Source of the DNA: an uncultured Atopobiaceae bacterium
GTDB taxonomy: Bacteria; Actinomycetota; Coriobacteriia; Coriobacteriales; Atopobiaceae
Length of the DNA stretch: 60,488 nucleotides
Reading direction: 5' to 3'
Assembly: GCA_947599965.1 (NCBI GenBank)
Contig: CANQFP010000003.1
Location: 1 to 60,488, forward strand
The position numbers were made by a program, and so were the translations under genes. Shown piece by piece: positions 146-24,602 of this stretch (positions are counted from its first letter, which is position 1; each line of letters opens with the position of its first letter). The notes beneath the pieces are model-generated. The model did no database searches and was not told the origin of the DNA. It was given only the letters and a program-made list of their open reading frames with translations.

Positions 146-3100
146 ATGCCTCCCAAGATCAAATCCTTCGTAGAGGTAGAGCCTCGGGTTTACGCCTACA
201 TCACGCCGGAGATCGAGAAGCACCACGGCTGGTCGAAGATCGGCTACACGGAGAAGCAGACTCCCGAAGATCGCGTGAGGCAACAGACCCATACCGTCGA
301 CATCGACTACGTGATCGAATGGCACGAGAGGGCCCAGTACACCGACGGTACCGGCGAACTCTTCCGGGATACCGACTTCCACAACTATCTCGAGCGGCAC
401 GAGGGCGTTGATCGCATCCCGGGCACGGAATGGTTCCATATCGTCGCTCCCGAATCACATGACACGTTCCTCACCTTCGCCGCACGCGGAATAGAAGCCA
501 TCGAAGATGGATCCAATTACGTCTTGCGAGATGAGCAACTTGATGCCGTCGAGAAGACGCGAGCGTATTTCGAGGCCGGGGGCACGGAATTCCTCTGGAA
601 CGCCAAGCCGCGCTTCGGGAAGACCCTGACGGCCTACGACCTCGTTCGCACGATGGGCATGAGGAACGTGCTCGTCCTCACGAACCGTCCCGCCATCGCG
701 CATTCATGGCTTGATGACTTCGTGAAGTTCATCGGTTGGCAAGATGGCGGGCGCTATGCCTTCGTCACGGACAACAACGTGCTCAAAGGCCAAAACGGCG
801 TGACGTCGCGCAGCGTCTACGCGCATCGGACGAGCGCGGAACGGCCCGATTCGCCGACCGCACATCGAATGATCGCCTTCGAATCGTTGCAAGGCCTCAA
901 AGGATCGGTCTATTTCGGCGGTGACTACGACAAGCTCAAATGGCTCACGCAGGTCAAATTCGACCTGCTCGTACTCGACGAATCGCACGAGGGCGTCGAC
1001 ACGGAGCTCACCGAGCTCGCGCTCAGGCAGATCAAGCGAACTCGCACTCTCTTTCTTTCCGGGACACCCTTCAAGGCGCTGGCGGACGCGCGTTTCGATG
1101 AGGACCAGATCTTCAACTGGACGTATCTCGATGAGCAGCAGGCGAAGCTCGACCACGAACGGGATGAGGTGAACCCCTACGAGGACATGCCCTCGATGGA
1201 GATGTACACCTACCAGATGTCCGCCATGATCGAAGGCGAGCTCTCGAAGCGAGCCGACCTCTCCGAGGGCAGGTCCGCCGACATAGCCTTCGATCTCAAC
1301 GAATTCTTCGCCGTTCAGGAGACCGGGGCATTCCGGCACAAGGAGTCCGTGGAGCGCTTTCTCGAATCCTTGACCACGCAGGAGAAGTATCCGTTCTCCA
1401 CTCCGGAACTCCGTGCGGAGCTCTCCCACACCCTCTGGATTCTCGACCGAGTCGACTCGGTGAGAGCCCTGGCCAAGATGCTCGCCGCCCACCCGGCTTT
1501 CAAGGACTACAAGGTGGTCGTGGCGGCCGGCGACGGCAAACTCGACGAGGAAACCGAAAACAGGACGGCGTACGAGCGGGTCAAGCGGGCCATCGCGGAG
1601 AACGACAAGACCATCACGCTCTCCGTCGGGCAGTTGACGGTGGGCGTGACCATTCCCGAGTGGAGCGGCGTGCTCATGCTGTGCAACATGAGGAGCGCCC
1701 AATCCTACGTGCAGGCGGCGTTCCGTGCGCAAAACCCGTGCTTGTTCGAGAAGAACGGGAAGTTCTATCGCAAGGAGCGGGCGTACGTCTTCGATTTCGA
1801 CCCCGCCCGCACCCTCATCGTGTATGAACAGTACGCGAACAGCCTGAAGCCGGGAACGGCGGGTGGAGCCGGAACCGCCGAAGACCACAGGCAAAACGTA
1901 AAGAGGCTGCTGAACTTCTTCCCCGTGATCGCAGAAGACGATGCGGGGAAGATGGTGCCCCTCGACGCGAGCAAGGTCCTGTCGATGCCGCGCAAGATCA
2001 AGTGCGAGGAGGTCGTGCGCCGGGGCTTCATGTCCAACTATCTCTTCCAGAACATCTCGAACCTCTTCAGCTCCCCGGCGCTTTACAAGGTGATCATGGA
2101 GAGCCTCCAACCCTATAAGGAGCCGAGGCCGAAGCACACGGTTATCGAGAGCATCGAGGACATCGTGGTGGATGCCCATGGGGACGTCGTCACGTCGCCC
2201 GAGACGGTTCGCAGGAAGGCCAAGGACCTGTTCAGCGAGAAACAGTACGAGTCCGTTGAAAAGGTCGTGAGCATTCCCATCCGCCTCGCGTCGTCCGAGC
2301 ACGATCTCGACGAGGTCAAAGCGAAGATCGAGCGGCATGCCGACGATGTCGCCCAGGCCCTGAGCGATACCTTCGTCAACACGGCGTTGGAGGCGAGCGA
2401 TCTGAAGCCGCGTGCAGAAGCGCGTCTACGGAGGAAGCTCGAGGACGCGGTCACGAAGTCCTATGGCAGCGTGGTGCAGGATTACGAGCGCGAGGTTCGC
2501 ATAGCCGCCACGGAGTTCGAAAGCTCGAAGAAGGCCGCCGATACGGAACTTGAATTGCAGGAGGCTCGGAAGGCCTTTGAAGCGGCGACGCAGGAGGCGG
2601 ATCGCAATCTCGCCGCAGCCCTCGAGGAGGTCAGCCAGACGATTCTCGAGGAACAGCCTCTCGCAATCGTCGAGACGATCGAGCGCGAGGAGACGTTGAC
2701 CAAGAAGCAGAACGTGGAGAACGCGATCCGCGACCATCTTCGGGGATTCTCGCGGACGATACCGAGCTTCATCATGGCCTATGGCGATCGCAACCTCACG
2801 TTGGCCAACTTCGACGACTACACCGAAGACGATGTGTTCAGGGAAGTCACGGGAATCACGGAAGATGAGTTTCGCCTGCTACGCGACGGGGGAGACTATC
2901 GTGACCCGGAGACGGGCGAGGTGTCGCATACGGAGGGCCATTTCTTCGACGCGACGGTCTTCGACGATTCCATCCAACAGTTCCTCGACAAACGCGATGA
3001 GCTGCAGAATTACTTCGACGAGACGCTCGTGGAGGACATCTTCGATTACATCCCACCCCAGAAGACCAACCAGATCTTCACGCCCAAATGGGTTGTGAGG

Positions 3101-3475
3101 GAGATGGTCGACCTCCTCGAGCAGGAGAATCCGGGGTGCTTCGATGATCCGAACGCCACCTTTGCGGATCTCTACATGAAATCAGGCCTCTTCATCACCG
3201 AGATCGCAACGAGGATGTACAACAGCGAGGCTCTGATGGATGCCATTCCCGATGACGATGAGCGCATACGCCACATCTTGCTCGAGCAGCTCTACGGCAT
3301 GGCGCCGACGAAGATCATCTACCTCATCGCCATGAACTTCATTTTCGGCTTCAACGATGAGCTGCGACAGCAGGCGGCGGAGGGGAAGCTCAAGCACTAC
3401 GCGCTGGCGGATGCCGCCCAAGCCGCGAAGCAAGGCACGCTGCAGAGACTCGTGAACGGGAAGTTCGGACGTTAG
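146..3475 (+). CDS. GIY-YIG/DEAD-box restriction protein with degenerate methylase-like C-terminus
   Basis: Putative restriction subunit of about 1,109 residues. Residues about 14-46 look like a GIY-YIG/T5orf172 nuclease module (VYAYIT, then WSKIGYT, then an Arg-containing helix). A superfamily 2 helicase/translocase core follows, with a Walker-A-like KPRFGKT near residue 155, a DESH box near 280 and SGTPF (motif III). A charged coiled-coil region spans about 700-880. The C-terminal 150 residues resemble the start of an N6-adenine methylase: QIFTPKWVV, then a motif-I-like ADLYMKSGLF. No NPPY catalytic motif follows, so methylation presumably comes from the partner encoded just upstream. ATG at 146 is preferred over GTG at 140 because GGAG at 137-140 is correctly spaced. 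A hairpin follows the stop. The domain calls are mine and unverified. Confidence 0.85.
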   Translation: MPPKIKSFVEVEPRVYAYITPEIEKHHGWSKIGYTEKQTPEDRVRQQTHTVDIDYVIEWHERAQYTDGTGELFRDTDFHNYLERHEGVDRIPGTEWFHIVAPESHDTFLTFAARGIEAIEDGSNYVLRDEQLDAVEKTRAYFEAGGTEFLWNAKPRFGKTLTAYDLVRTMGMRNVLVLTNRPAIAHSWLDDFVKFIGWQDGGRYAFVTDNNVLKGQNGVTSRSVYAHRTSAERPDSPTAHRMIAFESLQGLKGSVYFGGDYDKLKWLTQVKFDLLVLDESHEGVDTELTELALRQIKRTRTLFLSGTPFKALADARFDEDQIFNWTYLDEQQAKLDHERDEVNPYEDMPSMEMYTYQMSAMIEGELSKRADLSEGRSADIAFDLNEFFAVQETGAFRHKESVERFLESLTTQEKYPFSTPELRAELSHTLWILDRVDSVRALAKMLAAHPAFKDYKVVVAAGDGKLDEETENRTAYERVKRAIAENDKTITLSVGQLTVGVTIPEWSGVLMLCNMRSAQSYVQAAFRAQNPCLFEKNGKFYRKERAYVFDFDPARTLIVYEQYANSLKPGTAGGAGTAEDHRQNVKRLLNFFPVIAEDDAGKMVPLDASKVLSMPRKIKCEEVVRRGFMSNYLFQNISNLFSSPALYKVIMESLQPYKEPRPKHTVIESIEDIVVDAHGDVVTSPETVRRKAKDLFSEKQYESVEKVVSIPIRLASSEHDLDEVKAKIERHADDVAQALSDTFVNTALEASDLKPRAEARLRRKLEDAVTKSYGSVVQDYEREVRIAATEFESSKKAADTELELQEARKAFEAATQEADRNLAAALEEVSQTILEEQPLAIVETIEREETLTKKQNVENAIRDHLRGFSRTIPSFIMAYGDRNLTLANFDDYTEDDVFREVTGITEDEFRLLRDGGDYRDPETGEVSHTEGHFFDATVFDDSIQQFLDKRDELQNYFDETLVEDIFDYIPPQKTNQIFTPKWVVREMVDLLEQENPGCFDDPNATFADLYMKSGLFITEIATRMYNSEALMDAIPDDDERIRHILLEQLYGMAPTKIIYLIAMNFIFGFNDELRQQAAEGKLKHYALADAAQAAKQGTLQRLVNGKFGR

Positions 3476-5641: not shown

Positions 5642-8260
5642 CTAGCGCACGAAGAGCCGCACGAGCTTCTCCGAGAGCTCGCGATAGGGCTGGTAGCGAA
5701 GCGGGAGATCCATCCACGTGAGCTTGTTCACGATGCTCTTCTCGTGGCTGAAGGCCTCGTAGCCGCGTTTGCCGTGGTAGGAGCCCATGCCACTCGCGCC
5801 CACGCCGCCGAAGGGCATGGACGAGGTGGCGAGGTGGATCACGACGTCGTTCACGCACCCGCCACCGAAGGCGTGCTCGCGCATGACCTTGTGGGAGAGG
5901 ATCGGATCCTCGCTGAAGAAGTAGAACGCGAGCGGGTGCGGGCGCTCGTCCACCTCGGCGAGGGCCGCGTCGAGGTCGTCGTAGGCGATGATCGGCAGGA
6001 TCGGGCCGAAGATCTCCTCGCCCATGCAGGCGTCGTCCCACGAGACGTTCGTGAGGACGGTGGGGGAGATCTTGCGCTCGGACGCGATGGCCTCGCCGCC
6101 GACCGCGACCTTGAGCGGGTCGATGAGACCGAGCAGGCGCCGGTAGTGCTTGTCGTTCACGATGGCCACGAGATCGGGGTCCTCGAGCGGGTTCTGGCCG
6201 AACTGGCGGTGGATCTCCCCCTCGATCTCGTCGACGAGCTCTTGGGCGATGGCGCGATCGACGAGCACGTAGTCAGGCGCCACGCAGGTCTGGCCGGAGT
6301 TCAGGAACTTGCCCCAGACGATGCGGCGCGCGGCGAGGGCGACGTTGGCCGTCTGCTCGACGATGCAGGGGCTCTTGCCGCCGAGCTCGAGGATGGCAGG
6401 CGTGAGGCGCTCGGCGCAGTGGCGGAGCACCTCGCGGCCCACGGGCTGGCTCCCGGTGAAGAACACGAGGTCGAAGGGCTCGTCGAGGAGCGCCTTGTTC
6501 TGCTCGCGGCCTCCGGTCACGCAGGTCACGTGCTCGGGGCCGAAGGCATCCGCGATGAGCTTGCGGATGATGGCGCTCGTGGCGGGGGAGTAGGCGCTCG
6601 GCTTCACGACGCAGCAGTTCCCGGCCGCGATGGCGTCCACGAGCGGATCCATCGTGAGGAGGAAGGGATAGTTCCACGGGCTCATGATGAGGGTCGTGCC
6701 CATGGGCGAGCGGGTCGTGTAGGAGACGGAGGCGGTCTGGGCGAGCGGCGTCCAGGCGAGCTTGTCGGCCATGGAGCCGAGGAGATGGCGCTTCTGGTAG
6801 TGGAGCTCGGAGAGCACGAGCCCGACCTCGCACATGTAGGACTCGAAGCGGCTCTTGGAGAGATCGGCCGCCAGGGCATCGTAGATGTCCTGCTCGTGTT
6901 CGAGGATGGCGTGCTCGAGCTGGTCGAGGGCGCGAATCCGGAAGCTCCGCTCGAGCGTGCGGCCCTCGGCGAACCACGCCCTCTGGCGGCTCACGAGCTC
7001 CGTGATCTCCCGGGCGCGCGCCTCCGGGGTGTCCTCGGGGCCCTCCTCGAGCTCCTCGGCGGGCGCCATGAGCGCGCGGAAGACGTTGGCGAGGCTGCGG
7101 GCGTCCATGAGCACGGGCACGGGGTAGAGCGGATTGGCCTCGGCCGCGGCCCATTCCGAGAGCTGCGGGATGTCGGCGCGACGGATCTCGGGGAAGGTAT
7201 CGGGAATGCCGAAGCGCACCTTCATCTCGACGATCTTGGCGATGAAGCGCTGGGCCGCCTCGTGGGCCGGCGTGGAGGGGGTGGCGAGCCCGGCGGCGAC
7301 GGCGAGATCGGCCAGCTTCGGCTCCGCGGCCTCTCCGTAGATCTCGAGCATGAGCGGCAGGATCACCGCGTTAGCGTAGCCGTGGGGGATGTCGTAGGCG
7401 CCGCCGAGCGCGTGCGCGACGGCGTGCACGTAGCCCACGTAGGAGACGGTGAACGCGCATCCCGCGAGGTAGGCGGCTTGGAGCATGGCACGTCTGGCCG
7501 CGAGGTCCTCCGGATGCCCGTAGCTCTCCTCGAGGTTCTCGAAGATGAGGCGCACGGCCTCGAGGGCATCGGATCGGGTCTGCTCGGTGGTGGAATTGCC
7601 GATGTAGGCCTCCACGGCGTGGGTGAGGGCGTCGAGGCCGGTCGTGGCCGTGAGCGAGGGCGGCAGCGTGCGCGTCATCTCGGGATCGAGCACGGCGTAG
7701 CGGGGGATGAGCGGGAAGTCGTTGATGGCGTACTTGTGGCGCGTGCGCGCGTCGACGATGACGGCGGCCAGCGTCACCTCGCTGCCGGTGCCGGCGGTCG
7801 TGGGGATGGCGATGAGGAGCGGCAGGGGATGGAGCACCTTCAGGATGCCCGCGAGCTTCGAGAGCGGCGTGCGCGGGCGGGCGACGCGGATGCCCACGCC
7901 CTTGGCGCAGTCGATGGAGGAACCGCCGCCCACGGCCACGATGGCGTCGCAGCCCTCCGCCTTGTAGAACTCGTAGGCCTCCTCCACGGTCTCCGTCGTG
8001 GGATTGGCGCGCACGTCGGCGAAGATCGCGCAGCCGATGCCCGTCGCGTTGATGGCGCTGATGAGCTCCTTCGTGCCCTCGAGCTGGTAGACGCCCGGGT
8101 CGGTGACGATGAGCGGACGCCTCGCACCCTCCTTGCGCAGGATCTCCGGCACGTCCTTCACCGAATCGAGCACCTCGGGCCGGCGATAGGGGAGCACGGG
8201 GATGGCAACGCCCATGCCGGTTTGGAACGTGCGGCACCAGGCCTGCTCGATGGGGTTCAT
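5642..8260 (-). CDS. Fused iron-type alcohol dehydrogenase - aldehyde dehydrogenase
   Basis: A single 872-residue chain. Residues about 1-390 form an iron-dependent alcohol dehydrogenase. It has the nucleotide motif [11 protein letters not shown] and metal ligands in DALTHAVE (Asp, His), AHALGG and PHGYAN (two His). A short acidic Ala/Glu/Pro-rich linker leads to an aldehyde dehydrogenase domain with [15 protein letters not shown] (base Glu) and NSGQTCVAP (nucleophile Cys), ending like class-3 aldehyde dehydrogenases (SHEKSIVNK). The order is the reverse of AdhE, and the aldehyde half looks like the non-acylating class-3 type rather than the CoA-acylating type. It would interconvert alcohol, aldehyde and acid with NAD(P). 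The start MNPIEQ follows GGAAGGATCC. A palindromic operator candidate sits upstream. Confidence 0.92.
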
Positions 8261-8332
8261 GGAGGATCCTTCCGGTTGACGATGCGCGAGGCGCGGGGTG
8301 GCGATGAAGCGTCGCGTGCGGTTTTCTCGATT

Positions 8333-8348
8333 GGTTGAAAGTTCAACC
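8333..8348. promoter_or_regulatory. Inverted-repeat operator candidate
   Basis: GGTTGAA-AG-TTCAACC has perfect 7-bp arms. It lies just downstream of the minus-strand -10 at 8355-8360, overlapping the expected transcription start of the alcohol/aldehyde dehydrogenase fusion. A dimeric repressor site is the simplest reading. Confidence 0.5.
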
Positions 8349-8354
8349 TCGCGC

Positions 8355-8360
8355 ATTCTA
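8355..8360 (-). promoter_or_regulatory. Candidate -10 for adh-aldh fusion
   Basis: Read on the minus strand this is TAGAAT, about 95 bp upstream of the start codon. No good -35 is visible at 17 bp, which would suit an activated or weak promoter. It is positioned beside the inverted repeat at 8333-8348. Confidence 0.4.
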
Positions 8361-8401
8361 GCGGACCGTGGCACCTCCGATGCCCTACGTTGCGATCTCA
8401 A

Positions 8402-8423
8402 CTAAGGATGAGCTAAGGATGAG
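8402..8423. repeat. 11-bp perfect tandem repeat
   Basis: CTAAGGATGAG occurs twice in direct head-to-tail contact (8402-8412 and 8413-8423) in the divergent intergenic region. It could be a direct-repeat regulator site or a slippage duplication. Confidence 0.6.
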
Positions 8424-8540
8424 ACGAAGAACGGGTCGCCCGGTTCCAAACGGCCCTTGGGACGAGCGGTGCGTTTTGAACAAATCCGCCTCGCGAATGG
8501 GGCGAATTGTTGTGACGGCCCTGTGGTTCACTAGGCGCAG

Positions 8541-8560
8541 CCGAGGGCATGCGCCCTCGG
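8541..8560. promoter_or_regulatory. GC-rich hairpin in sbcD leader
   Basis: CCGAGGGC-ATGC-GCCCTCGG is a perfect 8-bp stem with a 4-nt loop, 30 bp before the sbcD start. No T-run follows, so it is more likely a leader structure than a terminator. Confidence 0.4.
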
Positions 8561-8589
8561 TGCTCGAGTTTCGGCGACGGGAGCGGGCG

Positions 8590-9753
8590 ATGCGATTTCT
8601 GCACATCGGCGATCTTCATCTCGGCAAGGTGGTCTCGGGCTATTCCATGCTCGAAGATCAATGCCAAACGTTGGAGCGGCTGTTGGACGATGCCGAGGAG
8701 GCCGAGGTGGAGGCCCTCGTCTTCGCGGGGGATCTCTACGATCGCTCGGCTCCCTCCGCCGAGGCCGTGGCGCTTCTGGATTGGCTTCTCACCGAGGCCT
8801 CGGAGCGGGGCTTCGAGGTGCTGCTCATCCCCGGCAACCACGATTCCGCCGAGCGCGTGGGATATGGTTCGGTGCTCCTCGAGCGTCAGGGCGTGCATGT
8901 GGCGCCGCCCTTCGCCGGCTCGATGACGAGCGTCATCCTCGAGGACGCGTACGGCGAGGTGCGCTTTTGGCTTCTGCCGTTTCTGCGGCCGGGCACCGTG
9001 CGCCCCTTCTTCGAGGAGGCCGAGATCGGCTCGGACTACGCCGCGGCGCTGGGAGCGGTGCTCGAGGCCGCGAGCGTGGATCCTGGCGAGCGCAACGTCC
9101 TCGTGGCGCATCAGTTCGTGCGTGCCGGCGGTGCGGAGCCCGAGCGAAGCGATTCCGAGACGAGCATCGGCGGTCTCGATGGCGTGGATGTCTCGCTCTT
9201 CGACGACTTCGACTACGTGGCCCTGGGGCACCTCCATCGTCCCCAGCGGGTGGGGCGTGGTACCGCGCGCTACGCCGGATCGCTCTTGAAGTACTCGCTC
9301 TCCGAGGCCCATGGGCAGAAATCGGCCGTGCTCGTGGACCTGGGGCCGAAGGGCGAGGTGGAGTGGTCGCTCCTGCCGCTCAGGCCGCCGCACGATCTTC
9401 GCGAGATCCGCGGGCCGCTCGACGAGCTTCTCGCCGAGGAGGTGCTCGGAGCGGCCGATCGCGAGGACTACGTCCACGCCATCCTCACCGATGACGAGCC
9501 CCCGGTCGACGCCCTCGCGCGGCTTCGCGCGACGTTCCCCAGGCTCATGGCCATGGATGTGGATAACGCGAGCACCCGGCGCATCGCCGATCTCGCCCAC
9601 GTCCAGGTGGAGGAGGCGGCGGACGACCCCCTCGAGCTCTTCGAGCGCTTCTTCGAGGAGCAGACGGGGCGTGAGGTCTCGAGTGTGCAGCGCGAGTTCT
9701 TGAACGAGGTCTTCGCCGAGTGCCTCGTCGATTTCGAGGGGAGTGCCTCATGA
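8590..9753 (+). CDS. sbcD: Exonuclease SbcCD, nuclease subunit SbcD
   Basis: A 387-residue Mre11-type metallophosphoesterase that works with SbcC to cleave DNA hairpins and blocked or protein-bound ends. All metal-binding motifs are visible in order: GDLHLGK (residues 7-13), GDLYDR, GNHDS, AHQF and GHLHR. The start is the ATG giving MRFLHIGDLHLG, the normal family N-terminus, preceded by a purine-rich GGGAGCGGG. Its TGA overlaps the ATG of sbcC (ATGA), so the two subunits are translationally coupled as expected for a stoichiometric complex. Confidence 0.97.
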   Translation: MRFLHIGDLHLGKVVSGYSMLEDQCQTLERLLDDAEEAEVEALVFAGDLYDRSAPSAEAVALLDWLLTEASERGFEVLLIPGNHDSAERVGYGSVLLERQGVHVAPPFAGSMTSVILEDAYGEVRFWLLPFLRPGTVRPFFEEAEIGSDYAAALGAVLEAASVDPGERNVLVAHQFVRAGGAEPERSDSETSIGGLDGVDVSLFDDFDYVALGHLHRPQRVGRGTARYAGSLLKYSLSEAHGQKSAVLVDLGPKGEVEWSLLPLRPPHDLREIRGPLDELLAEEVLGAADREDYVHAILTDDEPPVDALARLRATFPRLMAMDVDNASTRRIADLAHVQVEEAADDPLELFERFFEEQTGREVSSVQREFLNEVFAECLVDFEGSAS

Positions 9754-14674: not shown

Positions 14675-15646
14675 GTGGCCGACACGCGTGAGAGTTCCGA
14701 GATCCGTGCGCAGACGCCCGCCGCGCGCATCGACGCCGCGAGCCGCGCCAAGACCCTCACGCGGATCCTCTGGATCGGCTTCGCGCTGAACGTGGTCGTC
14801 GCCGTCTTCAAGTTCGTCTACGGCAACGTCACGTGCTCCATGTCCATGACCAACGACGGCATCGCGAGCTTCCTCGACGCCGGCTCGACGCTCATCGGCC
14901 TCGCCGGCGTATCCATCGCGAGCCGTCCGCCCTCCGATCGCCACCCCTACGGCCACGCCAAATACGAGACCTACGCCTCGGTGGCCATCGGCGTCATCCT
15001 CATCGTCGCCGCCGGCGACATCGCCCGCGAGGCGATCGAGACGCTCCTCGAGGGCGGCAGCCATGTCATGGTGGATTGGGCGAGCTACGTCATCATGCTC
15101 GGCACCATGGCCCTCAACATCTGGGTCGCCTGGTGGGAGGGCCGCTGGGGCCGCGAGCTCCACTCCGAATCGCTCACCGCCGACGCCAAGCACACGTGGA
15201 CCGACGTCTACGTCTCGGTCTCGGTCATCTGCTCGCTCATCTTCGTGCAACTCGGCTATCCCGCGGCCGACGCCCTCGTCTCCCTCATCGTCGCCCTCGC
15301 GGTGCTCGCCTCGGCGATCTCCATCTTCCGCGAGGCGAATCGCACCCTCTCCGACGTCTCGCGGCTCGACGCCGGCGAGGTGGCCGAGATGGTCGAGGGC
15401 GTGCCGGGCGTCGCCGGCGTCCACGAGGTGCGCAGCCGCGGCACCGAGGGCGAGGTCTACGTCGACCTCCACGTGCTCCTCGATCCGGAGATGACGCTTC
15501 GCGAGGCCCACGAGGTGGCGAGCGAGGCCGAGGCGCTCCTCGAGCGCACGTTTCCCGAGGTGGCGGATGTGAGCGTGCTCATGCGGCCGGCCGAGGACGC
15601 GGCGGGAGGCGCATCGGCGGACGATGCACCCGCTCCGGGCGCCTAG
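14675..15646 (+). CDS. Cation diffusion facilitator transporter, copy 2
   Basis: A 323-residue paralogue of the CDF at 12578, sharing TNDGIASF, HPYGHAKYETYAS, ADAKHT, SVSVICSL and the C-terminal EVYVDLHVLLDPEM block. As in copy 1, helix 5 keeps HTWTD while helix 2 reads ASFLD, with alanine in place of the first His/Asp ligand. GTG at 14675 is preferred as start because GGTGGGAGG lies just upstream; GTG at 14663 is an alternative adding four residues. Its stop shares the CTAG palindrome with the stop of the convergent EIIB-ROK gene. The paralogues probably arose by local duplication. Confidence 0.92.
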   Translation: MADTRESSEIRAQTPAARIDAASRAKTLTRILWIGFALNVVVAVFKFVYGNVTCSMSMTNDGIASFLDAGSTLIGLAGVSIASRPPSDRHPYGHAKYETYASVAIGVILIVAAGDIAREAIETLLEGGSHVMVDWASYVIMLGTMALNIWVAWWEGRWGRELHSESLTADAKHTWTDVYVSVSVICSLIFVQLGYPAADALVSLIVALAVLASAISIFREANRTLSDVSRLDAGEVAEMVEGVPGVAGVHEVRSRGTEGEVYVDLHVLLDPEMTLREAHEVASEAEALLERTFPEVADVSVLMRPAEDAAGGASADDAPAPGA

Positions 15647-17082
15647 GCGAGCTGCGGCTCGGTGATGATGGCCTCGGCTTCGAGGCGCTGGAGGCAGAGC
15701 GCGAGCATTCCGACGAAGATGCGCTCGCGCACATCGCTCACGGCCACGAGATCGGGCACGTAGCCGCCGGGCAGGTGCTCGGCCACCTCGGCGCGAAGCG
15801 CGTCCATGTCGGGCACGAGGTCGCATGCGATGTAGAACGCGTCCGGGGCCACGATGCAGCTCATCGCGATCACATGCGCCGCGGCGCCGTGGAGCACGGC
15901 ATCCGGGCTCCAGCGCATCTCATCAGCGTCACGCGGAAGCGCGTACATCTCCTGGACCGCGCCGATCTCCCCGGCGAACCCGCGACGCCCCTTCAGGAGC
16001 TTGCCGTCGATGACGGTGCCGGCGGCGCCGGTTGCGTGCCCCGTCTGCTGCACGAAGATCGAGACGTTCTCGTAGAGCTTCTGCGACGCGTAGCAGCCCA
16101 CGGCCGCGGCGTTGGCGTCGTTTTCCGCGAAGACCCGCACGCCGAAGTCGGCGCTCAACGTGCCGCCGAAGTCGTAGCTGGTGTCGGACGAGGGCGGGAA
16201 GGTCACCTGCGCGCCGTCCACGATGCCCGGCACCACGACCCCCACGGCATCCACCTTCGAGAAGTCGAGCCCCGATGAGCGCAGCGACACGAGCAGGTCG
16301 TTCACGTCGCGGAAGTCCACGCGGAGCTTGGCCACGCGGCCGGAGCGCGTCACCTCGCCACCCACGTAGAGCCGGTAGCGGATGGTCGTCCTGTCCGAGT
16401 GGAGGTTCACGTAGACGACGAGCACGACCTTGTCATTCAGCACGTCGCGCACGATTCGCAGATCCGGCGCGTCGGGCGTGGTGGCGTCGAGGGCGTCGAG
16501 CAGAAGGCGGATCGCGCCCGTGGCGTCGTAGGCCCCGTAGATCTTGGCGGGGATCTCGAAGACGGGTGTGGAGGGGAAGGCCTCGGCAACCTGCTTGCGC
16601 AGATAGCCCACCTGCGGTGCGAGCATCACCGCCGCGTAGGAGCCGTGTTCGGCGATCGCGGCCTCGAGGGGCTTGGCCACGAAGGTGTAGCCGAGCGAGA
16701 GCGAGGCGGCGCTTATGGAGAGCTTCTCCGCGAACATCATCGTGGTGAGCCCCGTCGTGCAGCAGAGGAGCACGGTCTGGGTTTCGCGTGTGCCCTGCTT
16801 GAGGAGCACCTCGAGCATCTCCTCGAAGAGCTCCTCGGCGCGATTGAGATCGGTGAGCTCGAAGTGCAGATGGAAGACGGGTTCGCAATCCTCGCAGGAG
16901 GAGCGGAGGATGGTGAACTCGACGATGCGCGGAGCCCCGTCACCCACCTCGTAGAAGGTGACCTTCGCCTCCGCGTGCTCGGTGGAGAGCACGATGGTGT
17001 CGTCATCGACCGAACGGATCGTGCAGCCGTCGATGCTTCGCGAGAGGATCCACGAGCGGAAGTCCTGATAGTTCTGGGCCAT
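15643..17082 (-). CDS. PTS EIIB(Lac)-like / ROK-fold fusion protein
   Basis: A 479-residue three-part protein. Residues 1-100 are an unrecognised domain with SSCEDCEPVF. Residues about 101-200 resemble a lactose/cellobiose EIIB: LLCCTTGLTT (candidate phospho-Cys108), then MLAPQVGYL, VFEIPAKIYG. Residues about 210-479 are a ROK fold: GVVVPGIVDG, ENDANAAAVG (Asp as in sugar kinases) and KGRRGFAGEIG. The ROK zinc motif CxCGxxGC is absent, and no helix-turn-helix is visible at the N-terminus, so it is not a standard NagC/Mlc repressor. It may be a phosphorylation-sensing sugar kinase or regulator. Next gene on the strand is a GH13 glucosidase upstream. A TACACT box lies 48 bp before the start. 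Confidence 0.85.
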   Translation of the reverse strand: MAQNYQDFRSWILSRSIDGCTIRSVDDDTIVLSTEHAEAKVTFYEVGDGAPRIVEFTILRSSCEDCEPVFHLHFELTDLNRAEELFEEMLEVLLKQGTRETQTVLLCCTTGLTTMMFAEKLSISAASLSLGYTFVAKPLEAAIAEHGSYAAVMLAPQVGYLRKQVAEAFPSTPVFEIPAKIYGAYDATGAIRLLLDALDATTPDAPDLRIVRDVLNDKVVLVVYVNLHSDRTTIRYRLYVGGEVTRSGRVAKLRVDFRDVNDLLVSLRSSGLDFSKVDAVGVVVPGIVDGAQVTFPPSSDTSYDFGGTLSADFGVRVFAENDANAAAVGCYASQKLYENVSIFVQQTGHATGAAGTVIDGKLLKGRRGFAGEIGAVQEMYALPRDADEMRWSPDAVLHGAAAHVIAMSCIVAPDAFYIACDLVPDMDALRAEVAEHLPGGYVPDLVAVSDVRERIFVGMLALCLQRLEAEAIITEPQLA

Positions 17083-17153: not shown

Positions 17154-18581
17154 TCAGTCGAGTGCGATGAGCGCGCCCGCGTGGGGGGCGAGGCGGATGC
17201 GAAGCGCACCTCCGTCGAGCTCGACGTCGGCCGCTCCCGCAACGACCGCGGCCGAGGCGGCGTCCACGGGAAGCCCCACGGAGATCTCCCGCTCGCCATC
17301 GGCGTTGTTGAGCGCCGTCACGCACGCCCTCTCACCGCCCGTGGCGTTTTCCGGATGGCCCGCCTCGAGCACGCGCGCGAAGGCGTAGGTCTCGTTTTGG
17401 AGGAGCAGCTCCCGGTAGGCGCCCCAGGAGAGCTCCGGCCGAGCGGCCTTCGCGGCGTTGAGCGCCCTCACCAAAGGCGGGATCTCGGGATGCGGCGCGG
17501 AGAGCGCCGCCAGGTCGAGGGCCGGGCGAAGCGGCTCGTCTGCCGCGGGTCCTTGGCCCTTGCGCCCCTCGATGCCGAACTCGCTTCCGTAGTAGACGGA
17601 GGGTATGCCGAGGATCGTGAAGAGGAACACGGTCACGGGCGTGAGATCGGCCTGGTCATCCAGCTTCGATGCGATGCGGTCGACGTCCTGGTTGTCGCAG
17701 AAGGTGTAGAGGTGCGCGCCCTGGCACGCGCCCCACGGGCCGAAGAGCCGAAGCACGTTGTGCCCCATCTCGAAGTAGTTATGGGAGTTGTGCGCGCTCC
17801 AGATGGCCTTCGAGAGCTCGTAGTTGGTCACGGAATCGAGGTGCGCCTCGTTCAGCCAGCGTTCGTAGTTGCCGTTGATGACCTCGCCCATGAGCCAGAA
17901 ATCGCCCCGGAGCGCCTTCATCCGCCCCACGAGTTGGCGCAGGAACTCGAAGTCCATGACGTCGGCGGAATCGAGGCGGATGCCGTCGATCCCGAAGTCC
18001 TCGAGCCAGAACTGCGCGACGTCGAGGAGGTAGTCGCGCACCTGCTGGTTGGCGAGGTCGAGCGCGGGCAGGATGTCCACCCCGCGCCAGCCCTCGTAGC
18101 CGAAGCCGTCGCCGAAGGGGCCCTGCCAGTCGAAGTTCACCCCGCGATACCACTCCTTGGCCCAGGAATCCCAACGCTTCTCGCGAAGGTCGCGGAAGGC
18201 GAAGAAGTCGCGGCCGGTGTGGTTGAAGACGCCGTCCACGACCACGCGTATGCCGAGCTCGTGGCAGTGGCGCACCCAGGCGCGGAACTCCTCGTTCGTG
18301 CCGAGGCGACTGTCCACGCGCCGGTAGTCCACGGTGTCGTAGCCGTGCGTCGAGCTCTCGAAGAGCGGGCCGATGTAGATGGCCGTGAAGCCGAGCTCGG
18401 CGGCGTGCTCGGCCCAGGTGGCGAGGCGATCGAACGGGGCGGGCGGAGGTTCGATGCCCCGCTCCGCGGCACCGCGCGCAAGCTGCGTCATCGCATCCTC
18501 GAAGGTGTTCTCCCGGGGGCACCCGCAGAGCCCGAGCGGGTAGATGTGGTAGAACCGCGCGCTTTCATACCAAGGAGCCAT
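17154..18581 (-). CDS. Glycoside hydrolase family 13 (cyclomaltodextrinase/alpha-glucosidase-like)
   Basis: A 475-residue cytoplasmic alpha-amylase-superfamily enzyme. The family-13 regions are present: DGVFNHTG (region I), GIRLDSADV with the nucleophile Asp (II), MGEVINGNY with the acid/base Glu (III), and CDNQDVDRI where NHD is usual (IV). A short beta-sandwich domain ends the chain. It would cleave alpha-1,4-glucans or maltodextrins taken up by the cell. No signal peptide is visible. The N-terminus MAPWYESARFYHIYPLG is typical of enzymes without N-terminal starch-binding domains. It lies upstream of the EIIB-ROK gene on the same strand, consistent with sugar-linked control. A minus-strand TACAAT box is at 18646-18651. 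Confidence 0.92.
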   Translation of the reverse strand: MAPWYESARFYHIYPLGLCGCPRENTFEDAMTQLARGAAERGIEPPPAPFDRLATWAEHAAELGFTAIYIGPLFESSTHGYDTVDYRRVDSRLGTNEEFRAWVRHCHELGIRVVVDGVFNHTGRDFFAFRDLREKRWDSWAKEWYRGVNFDWQGPFGDGFGYEGWRGVDILPALDLANQQVRDYLLDVAQFWLEDFGIDGIRLDSADVMDFEFLRQLVGRMKALRGDFWLMGEVINGNYERWLNEAHLDSVTNYELSKAIWSAHNSHNYFEMGHNVLRLFGPWGACQGAHLYTFCDNQDVDRIASKLDDQADLTPVTVFLFTILGIPSVYYGSEFGIEGRKGQGPAADEPLRPALDLAALSAPHPEIPPLVRALNAAKAARPELSWGAYRELLLQNETYAFARVLEAGHPENATGGERACVTALNNADGEREISVGLPVDAASAAVVAGAADVELDGGALRIRLAPHAGALIALD

Positions 18582-18760: not shown

Positions 18761-20968
18761 ATGGCAACGCTACTTTGGCAGGCGACGGCGGGCGAGGCGT
18801 GGACCGTTCGGGCGCGCGCGAGGGATTTCCTCTCGGGGCAGATCGTCCTCTCCGACGAGACCGTCGCGGGCGAGCAGGGCTGGACGCGTCCGCTCCGCTT
18901 CACCACCGAGCAGATCCGCGCCCTCTCCAGCGTCGCGGCATGGCACCCGGCGCTCTATCGCTCGCAGGCTACGTCCTGCGCGGGCGTCTGCGTCGAGGTG
19001 AGGACGACCGCCGATCATCTCGCCCTCGAGGTGTCGCGTGATCTCGGCAACGCCCGCGTGGGCGACGAGACGGCGGCGCTCGCGGAAGACGGGTTCTCCC
19101 TCGACATCGATGGGCGACACGTGCCCGAGGTGCTCGATGCCCATGGGACCGGGTTCGTGGTCGTCGACCTCTCCGGCGAGAAGCGCGCGAAGGCGCCGCG
19201 CGTCGTTCGCATCTGGCTTCCCGCGTATTCCGGGTGCTCCGTGCGCGCGATCCTCGCCTCCGCCGACCTCGAGGCGCTGCCCGAGCGCAGGACGCTCCTC
19301 GTCCTCGGCGGATCGATCGCCCAGGGCCAAAGCGCCCACGACCCCGGCCTCGGTTGGGCCCAGACGCTTCGCCGCACGGCCGACCTCGAGGTCATCAACC
19401 AGGGACTTCTCTCCCAGATCTTCCAGCCGAGCGCCCTCTCGCCTCTGGCGGGCGTCGTCGACCCCGATCTCGTATGGGTGGCCTATGGCGGCACCTATCG
19501 CCACGAGGAGTGCTACGAGAGCTCCGTGGAGCGCGACGTGCGCGCCGCCCTCGGCGTCATCCGGCGGCTCTGGCGCGATCGGCCGACCTGGATCGCGACG
19601 CCGACCCCCCACGATGAATCCGCTCGACCCTCCAGCGCCAAGAGCTGCTGGCGCGAGGTGCCGATGATCCTCGAGCACATCGCCGATCGCTGGCCGCAGT
19701 TCGAGCTCGTGGACGGCGACGACCTCCTCGACGCCGACCCGGAGCTCTTCGAAGACGCCGACCATCCGAACGCCGCGGGCCATGAGCTCATGGCCACGCG
19801 CATCGCCCGCGTGCTCGCCGGAAAGCCCGCCATCACCGATCGCGAGCGCGAGGATCGCGCGTTGCCCGCGTTCTTGCGTGAGATGGAACGTCGTCGGCCG
19901 GTGGCTCCCGAGGCTCCCGAAAAGCCCGATGCGGCGGACGCCGAGGCGGCCGAGCTCGTGGAGGAGGCCGTCGCCGAGGGCGAGGATGCGTCCGAGCCCA
20001 CGCCAGCCGCCGCCAGGCCCTCGCCCTCCTCCCACGCGGGCGGGGACGCCGGGGAAGCCGACGACGAGGACATCACCGACGTGGAAGTCGAGTTCGTCGA
20101 GGTGGAGGCCGAGGTGGCCGAGGCCACGACGGTGCTCGACGCCCGGTCCATCCGCGCCGCGATGAGGCGCACCGGAGAAGCGAACGCCTCCGCGAAGGGC
20201 GCCGCTCCCGCGCGCACGGTCTCCGCGCGCACCACCGGCCGCGCCATGGGAGCCGACGTGGACGCCGTGATCGAGCGGCTCGCCGCCGGACCTCTCGACA
20301 GCGTGCCCATGGAGCAGATCCTTCGCCGCGGTCTCGGGAAGCTGAGCTACGCCGGCGAGGGCTTCTGCAGCGTCGACCTCGCCGACGGCACCCGCTACTT
20401 CTTCGGCGACGACGTCGTCGAGGCCAAGCGCGCCATGGGCCGGCAGACGCGCCCGAGCCTCGCCGTCATCCTCTCACCCGAGCTCGAGAGCGTCGTGCGA
20501 CGCGTCTTCCCCACGAACGAGGTGAGCCTCGCCTACAAGCTCGCCGTCTGGGAGGGCACCGATCCGCTCCCGATCGAGGCGCAGCTCGACATCCGCCGCC
20601 TGGGCGCGAGCTGGGCCACCACCATCCGCCGAAGCTACAGCTTCCCCGAGGGGGCGAGTGCGGCAGAGATCGCGCATCTCCTCGCCAAGGGGCGGATCCT
20701 CGGCGGCTTCGACCTCGATAACCAGCTCGTGGGTTTCATCGGCGAGCATCCGGACGGAGCCCTCGGCATGCTCGAGGTCTTCCCGCGCGCTCGCCGGCGC
20801 GGCTACGGTTCGGCGCTTCTGGCTGCCAAGGCGAATGAGCACCTCGCCCAAGGGTGGACCCCGTTCAGCCAGGTGATGAGTGCCAACGAGGTCTCGCTCG
20901 CGCTCCACGAGGCCCTCGGCTTCACCATCGTGCCCACACGTCAGCTCTACATCCCCATGGAGGGTTAG
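18761..20968 (+). CDS. SGNH hydrolase - GNAT acetyltransferase fusion
   Basis: A 735-residue protein. Residues 1-170 are beta-rich and resemble the N-terminal domain of SGNH esterases. Residues about 175-355 are an SGNH/GDSL hydrolase with GGSIAQG (Ser185), a GGTYR block and DADHPN (Asp332/His335). An acidic, Ala/Glu-rich, probably disordered linker follows (about 365-490). The C-terminal half ends in a GNAT acetyltransferase fold (FPRARRRGYGSALL, the acetyl-CoA loop, near residue 680, then SANEVSLALHEALGF). No signal peptide is seen. It may remove an acyl group and acetylate a related substrate. It begins an operon with an ATP-grasp and an HD-domain gene, 6 bp before the next start. The substrate is unknown. 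Confidence 0.85.
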   Translation: MATLLWQATAGEAWTVRARARDFLSGQIVLSDETVAGEQGWTRPLRFTTEQIRALSSVAAWHPALYRSQATSCAGVCVEVRTTADHLALEVSRDLGNARVGDETAALAEDGFSLDIDGRHVPEVLDAHGTGFVVVDLSGEKRAKAPRVVRIWLPAYSGCSVRAILASADLEALPERRTLLVLGGSIAQGQSAHDPGLGWAQTLRRTADLEVINQGLLSQIFQPSALSPLAGVVDPDLVWVAYGGTYRHEECYESSVERDVRAALGVIRRLWRDRPTWIATPTPHDESARPSSAKSCWREVPMILEHIADRWPQFELVDGDDLLDADPELFEDADHPNAAGHELMATRIARVLAGKPAITDREREDRALPAFLREMERRRPVAPEAPEKPDAADAEAAELVEEAVAEGEDASEPTPAAARPSPSSHAGGDAGEADDEDITDVEVEFVEVEAEVAEATTVLDARSIRAAMRRTGEANASAKGAAPARTVSARTTGRAMGADVDAVIERLAAGPLDSVPMEQILRRGLGKLSYAGEGFCSVDLADGTRYFFGDDVVEAKRAMGRQTRPSLAVILSPELESVVRRVFPTNEVSLAYKLAVWEGTDPLPIEAQLDIRRLGASWATTIRRSYSFPEGASAAEIAHLLAKGRILGGFDLDNQLVGFIGEHPDGALGMLEVFPRARRRGYGSALLAAKANEHLAQGWTPFSQVMSANEVSLALHEALGFTIVPTRQLYIPMEG

Positions 20969-22411: not shown

Positions 22412-23646
22412 GCGTCGCCTCCGACGATAGGCTCTCGAGCGCGGCCGCCGCCGAGGTCGCCGGGCGCGTCGAGAGCCACTACGTGAGCCCCTACGCGGCA
22501 AAGGACGCCGACGCCCTGCGCCGCGATCCCGTGCGCGACCGATCGAGCGTGCTTCGCCCCGCCTACCAGCGAGACGTCGAGAAGATCCTGAACGTCCCCG
22601 CCTACAACCGCCTCGCTGGAAAGACGCAGGTCTTCTCCTTCGCCTCCAACGACGACGTCACGCGCCGCGGCCTCCACGTGCAGCTCGTGGCCCGCACGGC
22701 CAAGGACATCGGTCGTGCGCTCGGGCTCAACCTCGAGCTCATCGAGGCCATCGGCCTCGGTCACGACATCGGCCACACGCCCTTCGGCCACGCCGGGGAG
22801 CGCTTCCTCGACGCGATCCTCGACGAGCGCACCGGCCGCCACTTCTTCCACAACGTGCATTCGGTGCGCGTGCTCGACGCCCTCTACCATCGCAACCTCA
22901 CCCTGCAGACCCTCGACGGCGCCCTCTGCCATAACGGCGAGTACGAGCGGAGGCGCTTCACGCCCACGGGCCTCGGCACCTTCGACGACCTCGACGGCGC
23001 CGTGGAGGCGGCGGGCCGAGAGGGGGATCGCATCGTCTCCCACCTCGTGCCCATGACCCTCGAGGGCTGCGTCGTGCGCATCTCCGACATCATCGCCTAC
23101 GTGGGCAAGGACAGGGCCGACGCCATCCGCGCCCACCACGTGGAGGCCGACGACTTCGAGCGCGCCCAAGGCGGCGATTACAACGCCTACGCCCTCGGCT
23201 ACTTCATCGCCGACGTCGTGGAGCACTCGCTCGAGGGAACGGCCGAGGGCGCCGGCGCATGCGGCTGGATCGCCATGAGCGACGAGGCGTTTTCCGAGCT
23301 CGCACGCGCAAAACGCGAGAACTACGCGAAGATCTACCGCACGACCGAGCTCTCCGGCTCCACGGCCGAGCTCGTCGAGGAGCTCTTCCGGCTCGTCTAT
23401 GCGACGGCCATCGGCTGGCTCGAGGACGAGGCCACCGATTCGCCGATCTTCCGCCACCACATCGCGCAGCTCGAGCGGGAAAGCGGCTACTACGGCAGGC
23501 ACTACGACTGGTCAAGCGACCTCGACCAGACCTGCGTGGACTATCTGGCGTCCATGAGCGACAACTACTTCCTCGCGCTCGCCGAGCGCATCGACCCGAC
23601 GCTCACCGCGAAGCTGCCCTCGCACCCCTACTTCCGCGAGGACTGA
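22408..23646 (+). CDS. HD-domain dNTP triphosphohydrolase-like protein
   Basis: A 412-residue protein of the deoxyguanosine triphosphatase group. The HD metal site is complete: RGLHVQLV (His90), GLGHDIGHTPFGH (His119-Asp120) and a later RISDIIAY. These enzymes cut dNTP to deoxynucleoside plus triphosphate and trim nucleotide pools; some act in phage defence. The N-terminus (DRSSVLRPAYQRDVEKIL) also matches the family start pattern. GTG at 22408 overlaps the preceding TGA. Its 3' end overlaps the convergent EIIB-AroQ gene by 19 bp. Coupling to an ATP-grasp and an SGNH-GNAT protein is unusual for this family. Confidence 0.85.
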   Translation: MSVASDDRLSSAAAAEVAGRVESHYVSPYAAKDADALRRDPVRDRSSVLRPAYQRDVEKILNVPAYNRLAGKTQVFSFASNDDVTRRGLHVQLVARTAKDIGRALGLNLELIEAIGLGHDIGHTPFGHAGERFLDAILDERTGRHFFHNVHSVRVLDALYHRNLTLQTLDGALCHNGEYERRRFTPTGLGTFDDLDGAVEAAGREGDRIVSHLVPMTLEGCVVRISDIIAYVGKDRADAIRAHHVEADDFERAQGGDYNAYALGYFIADVVEHSLEGTAEGAGACGWIAMSDEAFSELARAKRENYAKIYRTTELSGSTAELVEELFRLVYATAIGWLEDEATDSPIFRHHIAQLERESGYYGRHYDWSSDLDQTCVDYLASMSDNYFLALAERIDPTLTAKLPSHPYFRED

Positions 23647-24602
23647 GCCTCGCGCAGGTGCTCGGCGAGGATGCGGATGGCGTGGGCGTAGCCCTCGAGG
23701 CCCTCGCCGGCCACCGTGGCGAGGCACGCCTCGCGCACGTAGGAGGTCTGGCGGAACCCCTCGCGTTCCATCACGTGCGACATGTGCACCTCGACGCAGG
23801 GAAGTCCCACGGCCTTGAGCGCGTCCAGGAGCGCCACGGAGGTGTGGGTGTAGGCGGCGGGGTTGAGCACGATGCCGTCGAAGGAGAGTCGCGCCTCCTG
23901 GATCATGTCCACGAGATCGCCCTCGTGGTTCGACTGATAGCACCGCACCTCGCCGAACCCCTCGGCAAGCGCCGTCTCATGGCAGAGTTCCACGAGGTCG
24001 TCGTAGGTGTTCTCGCCGTAGATGCCGGGCTCGCGCACGCCGAGGAGGTTCATGTTGGGCCCGTTGACGATGAGCACCGCGCAGTCGGCGAGCTCGGATT
24101 CGGCTTCCGCGTCGCTCTCCGTCTCGTCGTCCACGGAATTCAGGAGCTCACGCAGGCGCTCGAGATCCTCGCGGGAAAGCGCGCCGGAGACGCTCTGGGT
24201 TGCGCCGGAGCGCGCGAAGAGGTTCGTCTCGTCGCGGTTCGCGTGGCCGCGGCGAAGCCCCTTGGGTGTGAGCTTCATGACGGCCGTGGAATTGCGGTGC
24301 GAGATCGGCATGGCGAGGCGATCGGCCATGTCCTCGGCGACGGCGTTCACCACCGCCGGCCCGAACACCACCTCGACCCCGGAATCGCCGCGCTTCCTCG
24401 CGGAAAGCACGTGGTGGATGGCCCGGATGGCCGAGAGGTCGACGAGGGAGATGTCATCCAGCTCAAGACGCAGCCGGGTCATGCAACGGGCGAGGGAGCG
24501 CACGTTGCCGGGTCCTCCGGTGGCGTCGAGAAGTGCCTGGGAATACGGAGTGGTCTCCATGAGGCCGCCCATCCTCTGCGCGCCGGCGACGGGAGCATCC
24601 AT
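23628..24602 (-). CDS. aroQ: PTS EIIB(Glc)-like - type II 3-dehydroquinate dehydratase fusion
   Basis: A 324-residue fusion. Residues about 18-96 resemble a glucose-family PTS EIIB: GGPGNVRSLARCMTRLRLEL with Cys40 in the phospho-acceptor place, later VEVVFGPAVVNAV. A linker of about 75 residues follows. Residues about 172-324 are a type II dehydroquinase (third shikimate step): NGPNMNLLG, catalytic Tyr in GIYG, SNHEGDL, NPAAYTHTS, and EVHMSH where EVHxSN is usual. No PTS permease is nearby. Start choice is uncertain: ATG 24602 gives the full frame, while ATG 24560 (METTPYS) lies 12 bp after AGAGG and still keeps the EIIB core. It is the last gene of the aromatic cluster, 194 bp after aroEK. 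Confidence 0.92.
   Translation of the reverse strand: MDAPVAGAQRMGGLMETTPYSQALLDATGGPGNVRSLARCMTRLRLELDDISLVDLSAIRAIHHVLSARKRGDSGVEVVFGPAVVNAVAEDMADRLAMPISHRNSTAVMKLTPKGLRRGHANRDETNLFARSGATQSVSGALSREDLERLRELLNSVDDETESDAEAESELADCAVLIVNGPNMNLLGVREPGIYGENTYDDLVELCHETALAEGFGEVRCYQSNHEGDLVDMIQEARLSFDGIVLNPAAYTHTSVALLDALKAVGLPCVEVHMSHVMEREGFRQTSYVREACLATVAGEGLEGYAHAIRILAEHLREAQSSRK

Follow-up and report, generated by a model that had tools for sequence, protein, structure and literature searches.

What function might a protein serve in which an EIIB domain of the PTS is joined to a ROK fold? The question is posed by a gene on the minus strand (positions 15643..17082) of the 60,488-nucleotide stretch of DNA from an uncultured Atopobiaceae bacterium that was analysed here (the window), in which one intact open reading frame encodes 479 amino acids. 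An earlier note on this DNA had read the product as an unrecognised N-terminal domain followed by a lactose/cellobiose EIIB-like domain and a ROK fold, and had offered two functions for it, a phosphorylation-gated sugar kinase or a sensor acting on the adjacent GH13 gene.

Architecture of the EIIB-ROK protein

A fusion created by misassembly or frameshift was ruled out by 90 homologues, which are mostly encoded in a single uninterrupted frame (a few copies carry one stop). The genome of the window (1.43 Mb, 96% complete) holds two EIIB-ROK copies that are 46% identical to each other, and orthologues, with 66–74% identity to the protein in the window, are under constraint (dN 0.04–0.20 versus dS 0.41–0.65; dN/dS ~0.1–0.4). 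Since there are two copies in the genome and 90 aligned homologues, and since dN lies well below dS, the gene does not owe its form to chance. The three-part layout was confirmed by Pfam, NCBIfam, a profile of 43 family members and fold matches. A Pfam scan of the whole protein found only ROK and PTS_IIB, and the AlphaFold2 model of the full chain (pLDDT 84.6, pTM 0.82) displays a predicted ROK fold and a predicted ChbB-like EIIB domain.

The middle part (residues 101–198, approximately; 16489..16782, minus strand) is of the EIIB(Lac/Cel/Chb) type by profile and fold matches. Pfam PTS_IIB (PF02302) covers residues 104–182 with 19.9 bits in the whole protein and 23.6 bits when the domain is scanned alone (cut-off 23.6), and paralogues score 24.8–38.3 bits against the same model. 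The top ranks in NCBIfam were PRK10499 and the pts-lac EIIB (1.3e-8), the family profile retrieved the chitobiose EIIB 1h9c (E=5.9e-15), and the predicted domain superimposes on ChbB (2wy2) with a TM-score of 0.87 and an rmsd of 1.5 Å over 98 columns. The ChbB fold match and the chitobiose EIIB profile match rule out that this region is a mere Rossmann-like insertion, a doubt that the earlier note had raised. The C-terminal part (residues 215–472, approximately; 15667..16440, minus strand) is matched above cut-off by Pfam ROK (PF00480, residues 275–376, E=7.5e-14); model residues 218–470 match ROK structures with a VIA Z of ~21, and the family profile finds the ROK N-acetylglucosamine kinase 2hoe (E=7.3e-12).

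The N-terminal domain (residues 1–98; 16789..17082, minus strand) was modelled alone with a pLDDT of 89.8 and is predicted to adopt an alpha-beta5-alpha fold in the order H-EEEEE-H. Scanning it against Pfam revealed no family and no helix-turn-helix (HTH), in agreement with the claim that an N-terminal HTH is missing, and searches of the PDB and of a viral structure library with the domain gave no significant fold match. Its best VIA matches (Mediator, Fbxo7, frataxin and T3SS-chaperone-like) had middling Z and low identity, and no function was drawn from them. Glu55 is invariant in this domain; the SSCEDC sequence (residues 61–66), which had been proposed as its motif, is present in the window copy and unconserved across the family. 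In the class sample, the domain was encountered only in genomes that also encode a full-length EIIB-ROK protein. A subgroup of the family from genera g13 and g25 (L051, L052, L055, L056, L059 and L062) bears ~255 extra N-terminal residues in which motifs resembling those of calcineurin-type phosphoesterases (GDIHG, GD, GNHE and GHYH) were picked out by eye; the extension had no match in Pfam, NCBIfam or PDB sequences.

The Cys108 loop and the ROK active site

Cys108 (codon 16759..16761, minus strand), the predicted phosphorylation site that had been singled out as a candidate from the start, aligns with the active cysteine of EIIB. It is kept in 89 of the 90 aligned homologues, all of which come from 5 of the 35 sampled Atopobiaceae genera, and the pattern C-[TSAN]-x-[GA]-x-T-[TS] surrounds it in 89/90; the sole exception, L079, lacks most of the loop. 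Cys107 forms an adjacent CC pair with Cys108 in 77/90 homologues, as might be expected if the two cysteines were a redox or metal switch and not a site of phosphorylation. This reading is very improbable in our estimation: Cys107 is replaced by Ser, Val or Tyr in 13/90 homologues, while Cys108 and the phosphate loop are kept in 89/90.

The PTS genes of the window genome comprise EI, EIICs and a single EIIA-Lac, the last adjoined by a gene for a free EIIB. The intact loop and the presence of EIICs would also suit a working EIIB of a Lac/Cel-type permease, with the ROK half acting as a sugar-binding modulator or anchor. We hold such a role to be unlikely, as no EIIC gene was recognised among the immediate neighbours of family genes, a free EIIB already lies beside the EIIA, and a genome may carry as many as eight family members.

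The ROK half has parted with most of the signatures of a kinase. Among the signatures listed for ROK proteins (PMC5458393) is DxGxT, the nucleotide motif of the N-terminal lobe, which is found at its site in 1 of the 90 homologues and is missing from the other 89, the window copy among them. ExGH is present in none of the 90 (the window copy reads EIGA, with Glu372 kept and the His replaced), nor does any of them carry the zinc motif CxCGxxGC, whose absence from the window copy had been remarked upon earlier. The catalytic Asp322, which lies in the active-site loop ENDAN (residues 320–324; 16111..16125, minus strand), is kept in 19/90 homologues including the window copy and replaced in 71/90 (by Asn in 68), whereas the sugar-pocket residues N321 and G371, and mostly E372, are kept. 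As a control, the same scan applied to five ROK kinases from related genomes recovered DxGxT in 5/5 and ExGH in 4/5, while two classical HTH-ROK regulators (L083 and L088) lacked DxGxT, like the EIIB-ROK family. Absence of the zinc motif is not decisive on its own because true ROK kinases without it exist (PMC5458393); with DxGxT, ExGH and the zinc motif lost and the catalytic Asp mostly changed, the ROK half is most likely a pseudokinase. Judged by alignment, the loss of chemistry is less complete in the window copy, which retains Asp322, than in most paralogues. The statement that the protein is neither a NagC/Mlc repressor nor a plain glucokinase is borne out by the missing N-terminal HTH, the missing zinc motif and the lost kinase signatures.

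Two kinds of kinase nevertheless had to be weighed. The ROK fold, the Asp322 of the window copy and the existence of zinc-less ROK kinases (PMC5458393) would agree with an ATP-dependent sugar kinase that is merely gated by EIIB, the first option of the earlier note, which we find barely credible in a protein that, like nearly all its relatives, is without DxGxT and ExGH. Alternatively, the protein could be a soluble PTS-dependent sugar kinase, in which a sugar bound by an ATP-less ROK cleft would receive the phosphate of EIIB~P and the ROK half would stand in for the membrane EIIC. With the donor switched from ATP to phosphocysteine, one would expect the ATP-site motifs to be lost and the EIIB loop to be preserved, and the conservation of N321, G371 and mostly E372 in the sugar pocket, together with the catalytic Asp in the window copy and 18 others, would fit as well. 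Against it stand the replacement of Asp322 in 71/90 homologues and the loss of the ExGH His in all; we know of no precedent for EIIB~P passing phosphate to a sugar in a ROK cleft, and give this mechanism a slender chance.

Overall, alignments and predicted structure show an EIIB domain with an intact putative phosphorylation loop, joined to a ROK domain from which the kinase signatures are missing. With the Cys108 loop near-invariant and the ROK kinase motifs lost, the predicted phosphorylation site is constrained and the kinase site not. The EIIB-ROK protein is thus probably a soluble sugar-status sensor or regulator that is fed by the PTS, and no kinase: gating by phosphorylation, as first proposed, fits the near-invariant loop, and of the two functions offered the sensor was the better half.

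Distribution, neighbouring genes and unfused relatives

In a sample of 140 Atopobiaceae genomes, the family occurs in 42 genomes from 5/35 genera, a single genome holding at most eight copies, and in the class sample it is present in only 3/125 genera. The full architecture was not found outside Atopobiaceae in the class or phylum samples, which are samples and no census; the other matches listed in the phylum sample span EIIB alone or ROK alone. Named relatives are uncultured Atopobiaceae whose isolate names ('Lapin') hint at rabbits as the source, and the family has so far been found confined to a few genera of gut Atopobiaceae. A plasmid search found none.

The GH13 gene (alpha-amylase clan; 17154..18581, minus strand) lies 71 bp upstream of the EIIB-ROK gene on the same strand, and its nearest model is a cyclomaltodextrinase, far under the cut-off of that model. 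Five orthologous loci of the same genus have GH13 as the immediate upstream neighbour on the same strand; other homologues sit beside varied genes. The suggested link to GH13 therefore holds as an arrangement conserved within one genus, and as the target of the whole family GH13 was ruled out, since homologues elsewhere adjoin other genes, most often HAD phosphatases. The latter are the commonest neighbour of family genes (9/106), and 13/43 family genes have one within 3 kb, versus ~1.7 expected from the density of HAD genes. This count was made by hand and includes one case supported solely by a BLAST cluster. Collapsed by eye to ~8/30 independent cases, the enrichment has a P of ~3e-5 in a Poisson test that takes gene positions as random. 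An association with GH1 phospho-glycosidases (4 cases versus 1.8 expected) was not significant.

Some further proteins were observed. In the window, 18761-20968 (plus strand) encodes a 735-aa protein with an SGNH/GDSL hydrolase part and a C-terminal GNAT acetyltransferase, and 23628-24602 (minus strand) a 324-aa protein in which a glucose-type PTS_EIIB (E=7.9e-12) is fused to a type II 3-dehydroquinate dehydratase (E=3.3e-52). The latter, another EIIB domain without a permease and here on a shikimate enzyme, has a homologue (cluster c7) kept in three loci of the same genus, and no paper on such a fusion was found in the open-access literature. At L080 (G000:C47), plus-strand genes at 1224-1949 and 2524-3372 encode proteins (241 and 282 aa) that each contain a tandem pair of EIIB(Lac) domains and adjoin a free EIIB (416-721) and the single EIIA-Lac of the genome (761-1156).

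Genus g19 (G667 and G668) harbours fused copies (L100, L101, L103 and L104) as well as unfused parts in the same genomes. The G667 operon (L151, minus strand) comprises, in order, a 207-aa N-domain+EIIB protein (8200-8823), a Cof-type HAD sugar-phosphatase (7298-8269) and a 329-aa ROK protein with an extra N-terminus (6183-7172); glyoxalase-like, PHP and MFS transporter genes come next, and a GH1 gene lies on the opposite strand. The match of the free g19 ROK to the family ROK profile (E 6e-25 to 4e-27) extends over most of its length, whereas ordinary ROKs match mainly over ~110 residues. In a tree of few, hand-chosen ROKs with long branches, the free ROK clusters with the family (support 99/97). 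Its N-terminus looks winged-HTH-like, with a weak Pfam match (MarR_2, E=0.09), and a relative, L157, matches HTH_24 at 1.3e-5. Because a free ROK with an HTH-like N-terminus both matches and groups with the family ROK, the comparison, drawn from few sampled sequences on long branches, points to a regulatory ROK ancestry for the ROK part. The window genome yielded no HTH-ROK partner, and its other ROKs look like plain kinases. The L157 gene (2026-3057, plus strand), from a genome of the same order, encodes a short zinc-less HTH-ROK regulator of 343 aa that matches the C-terminal part of the family ROK.

A proposed role and its relation to known systems

We propose that EI/HPr and an EIIA, for which the single EIIA-Lac of the genome is the obvious candidate, would phosphorylate Cys108 when no cognate sugar draws phosphate, and that Cys108 would be dephosphorylated when such a sugar does. 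The state of Cys108 and a sugar or sugar phosphate bound in the ROK cleft would jointly set the conformation of the protein, with output through the N-terminal domain or a partner protein; DNA binding through an HTH is unlikely, as no DNA-binding domain was seen. The protein would most likely inform the cell of the sugars that it is importing, and paralogues may be tuned to different sugar loci. The analysis thereby offers a concrete predicted PTS phosphorylation site in a family without annotation and what would be a clear-cut example of a pseudokinase derived from a sugar kinase fold, and the unfused g19 operon provides a direct comparison for dissecting function.

Regulators that carry EIIB are known already; searches of Pfam, NCBIfam and open-access papers turned up no description of EIIB fused to ROK, and those of papers none of ROK pseudokinase sensors. 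With the EIIB proteins of the Lac/Cel/Chb class (ChbB, CelA) the domain shares sequence, fold and the same active cysteine loop, but it sits fused inside a larger soluble protein. EIIB cysteines control the regulators MtlR and CelR (PMC11537053, PMC3478281), and the PRD regulators with EIIB(Gat)-like domains (MtlR, LicR and CelR) resemble the proposed sensor in using an EIIB cysteine in a regulator-type role; they differ in having PRD and HTH domains, none of which the Pfam scan found in the EIIB-ROK protein, in lacking ROK and in carrying an EIIB of another class. To the ROK regulators NagC, Mlc, Lmo0178 and MecR2 the protein is akin in its ROK fold (residues 213–475 were matched to Mlc and MecR2) and in the loss of kinase motifs, absent from L083 and L088 too with respect to DxGxT, yet it has EIIB instead of an N-terminal HTH, no zinc motif and a shorter C-terminal half. 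A further precedent is the Mlc-EIIB(Glc) complex (3bp8), found as a fold match, in which a ROK protein is paired with, and controlled by, an EIIB in trans. In that complex the EIIB is part of the membrane-borne glucose transporter and represents a different class, and Mlc is a DNA-binding protein, whereas the EIIB-ROK protein holds its EIIB in cis; if our reading is true, the link between EIIB and ROK has evolved by a second route, in cis, and has expanded up to eight-fold within a single group of gut bacteria.
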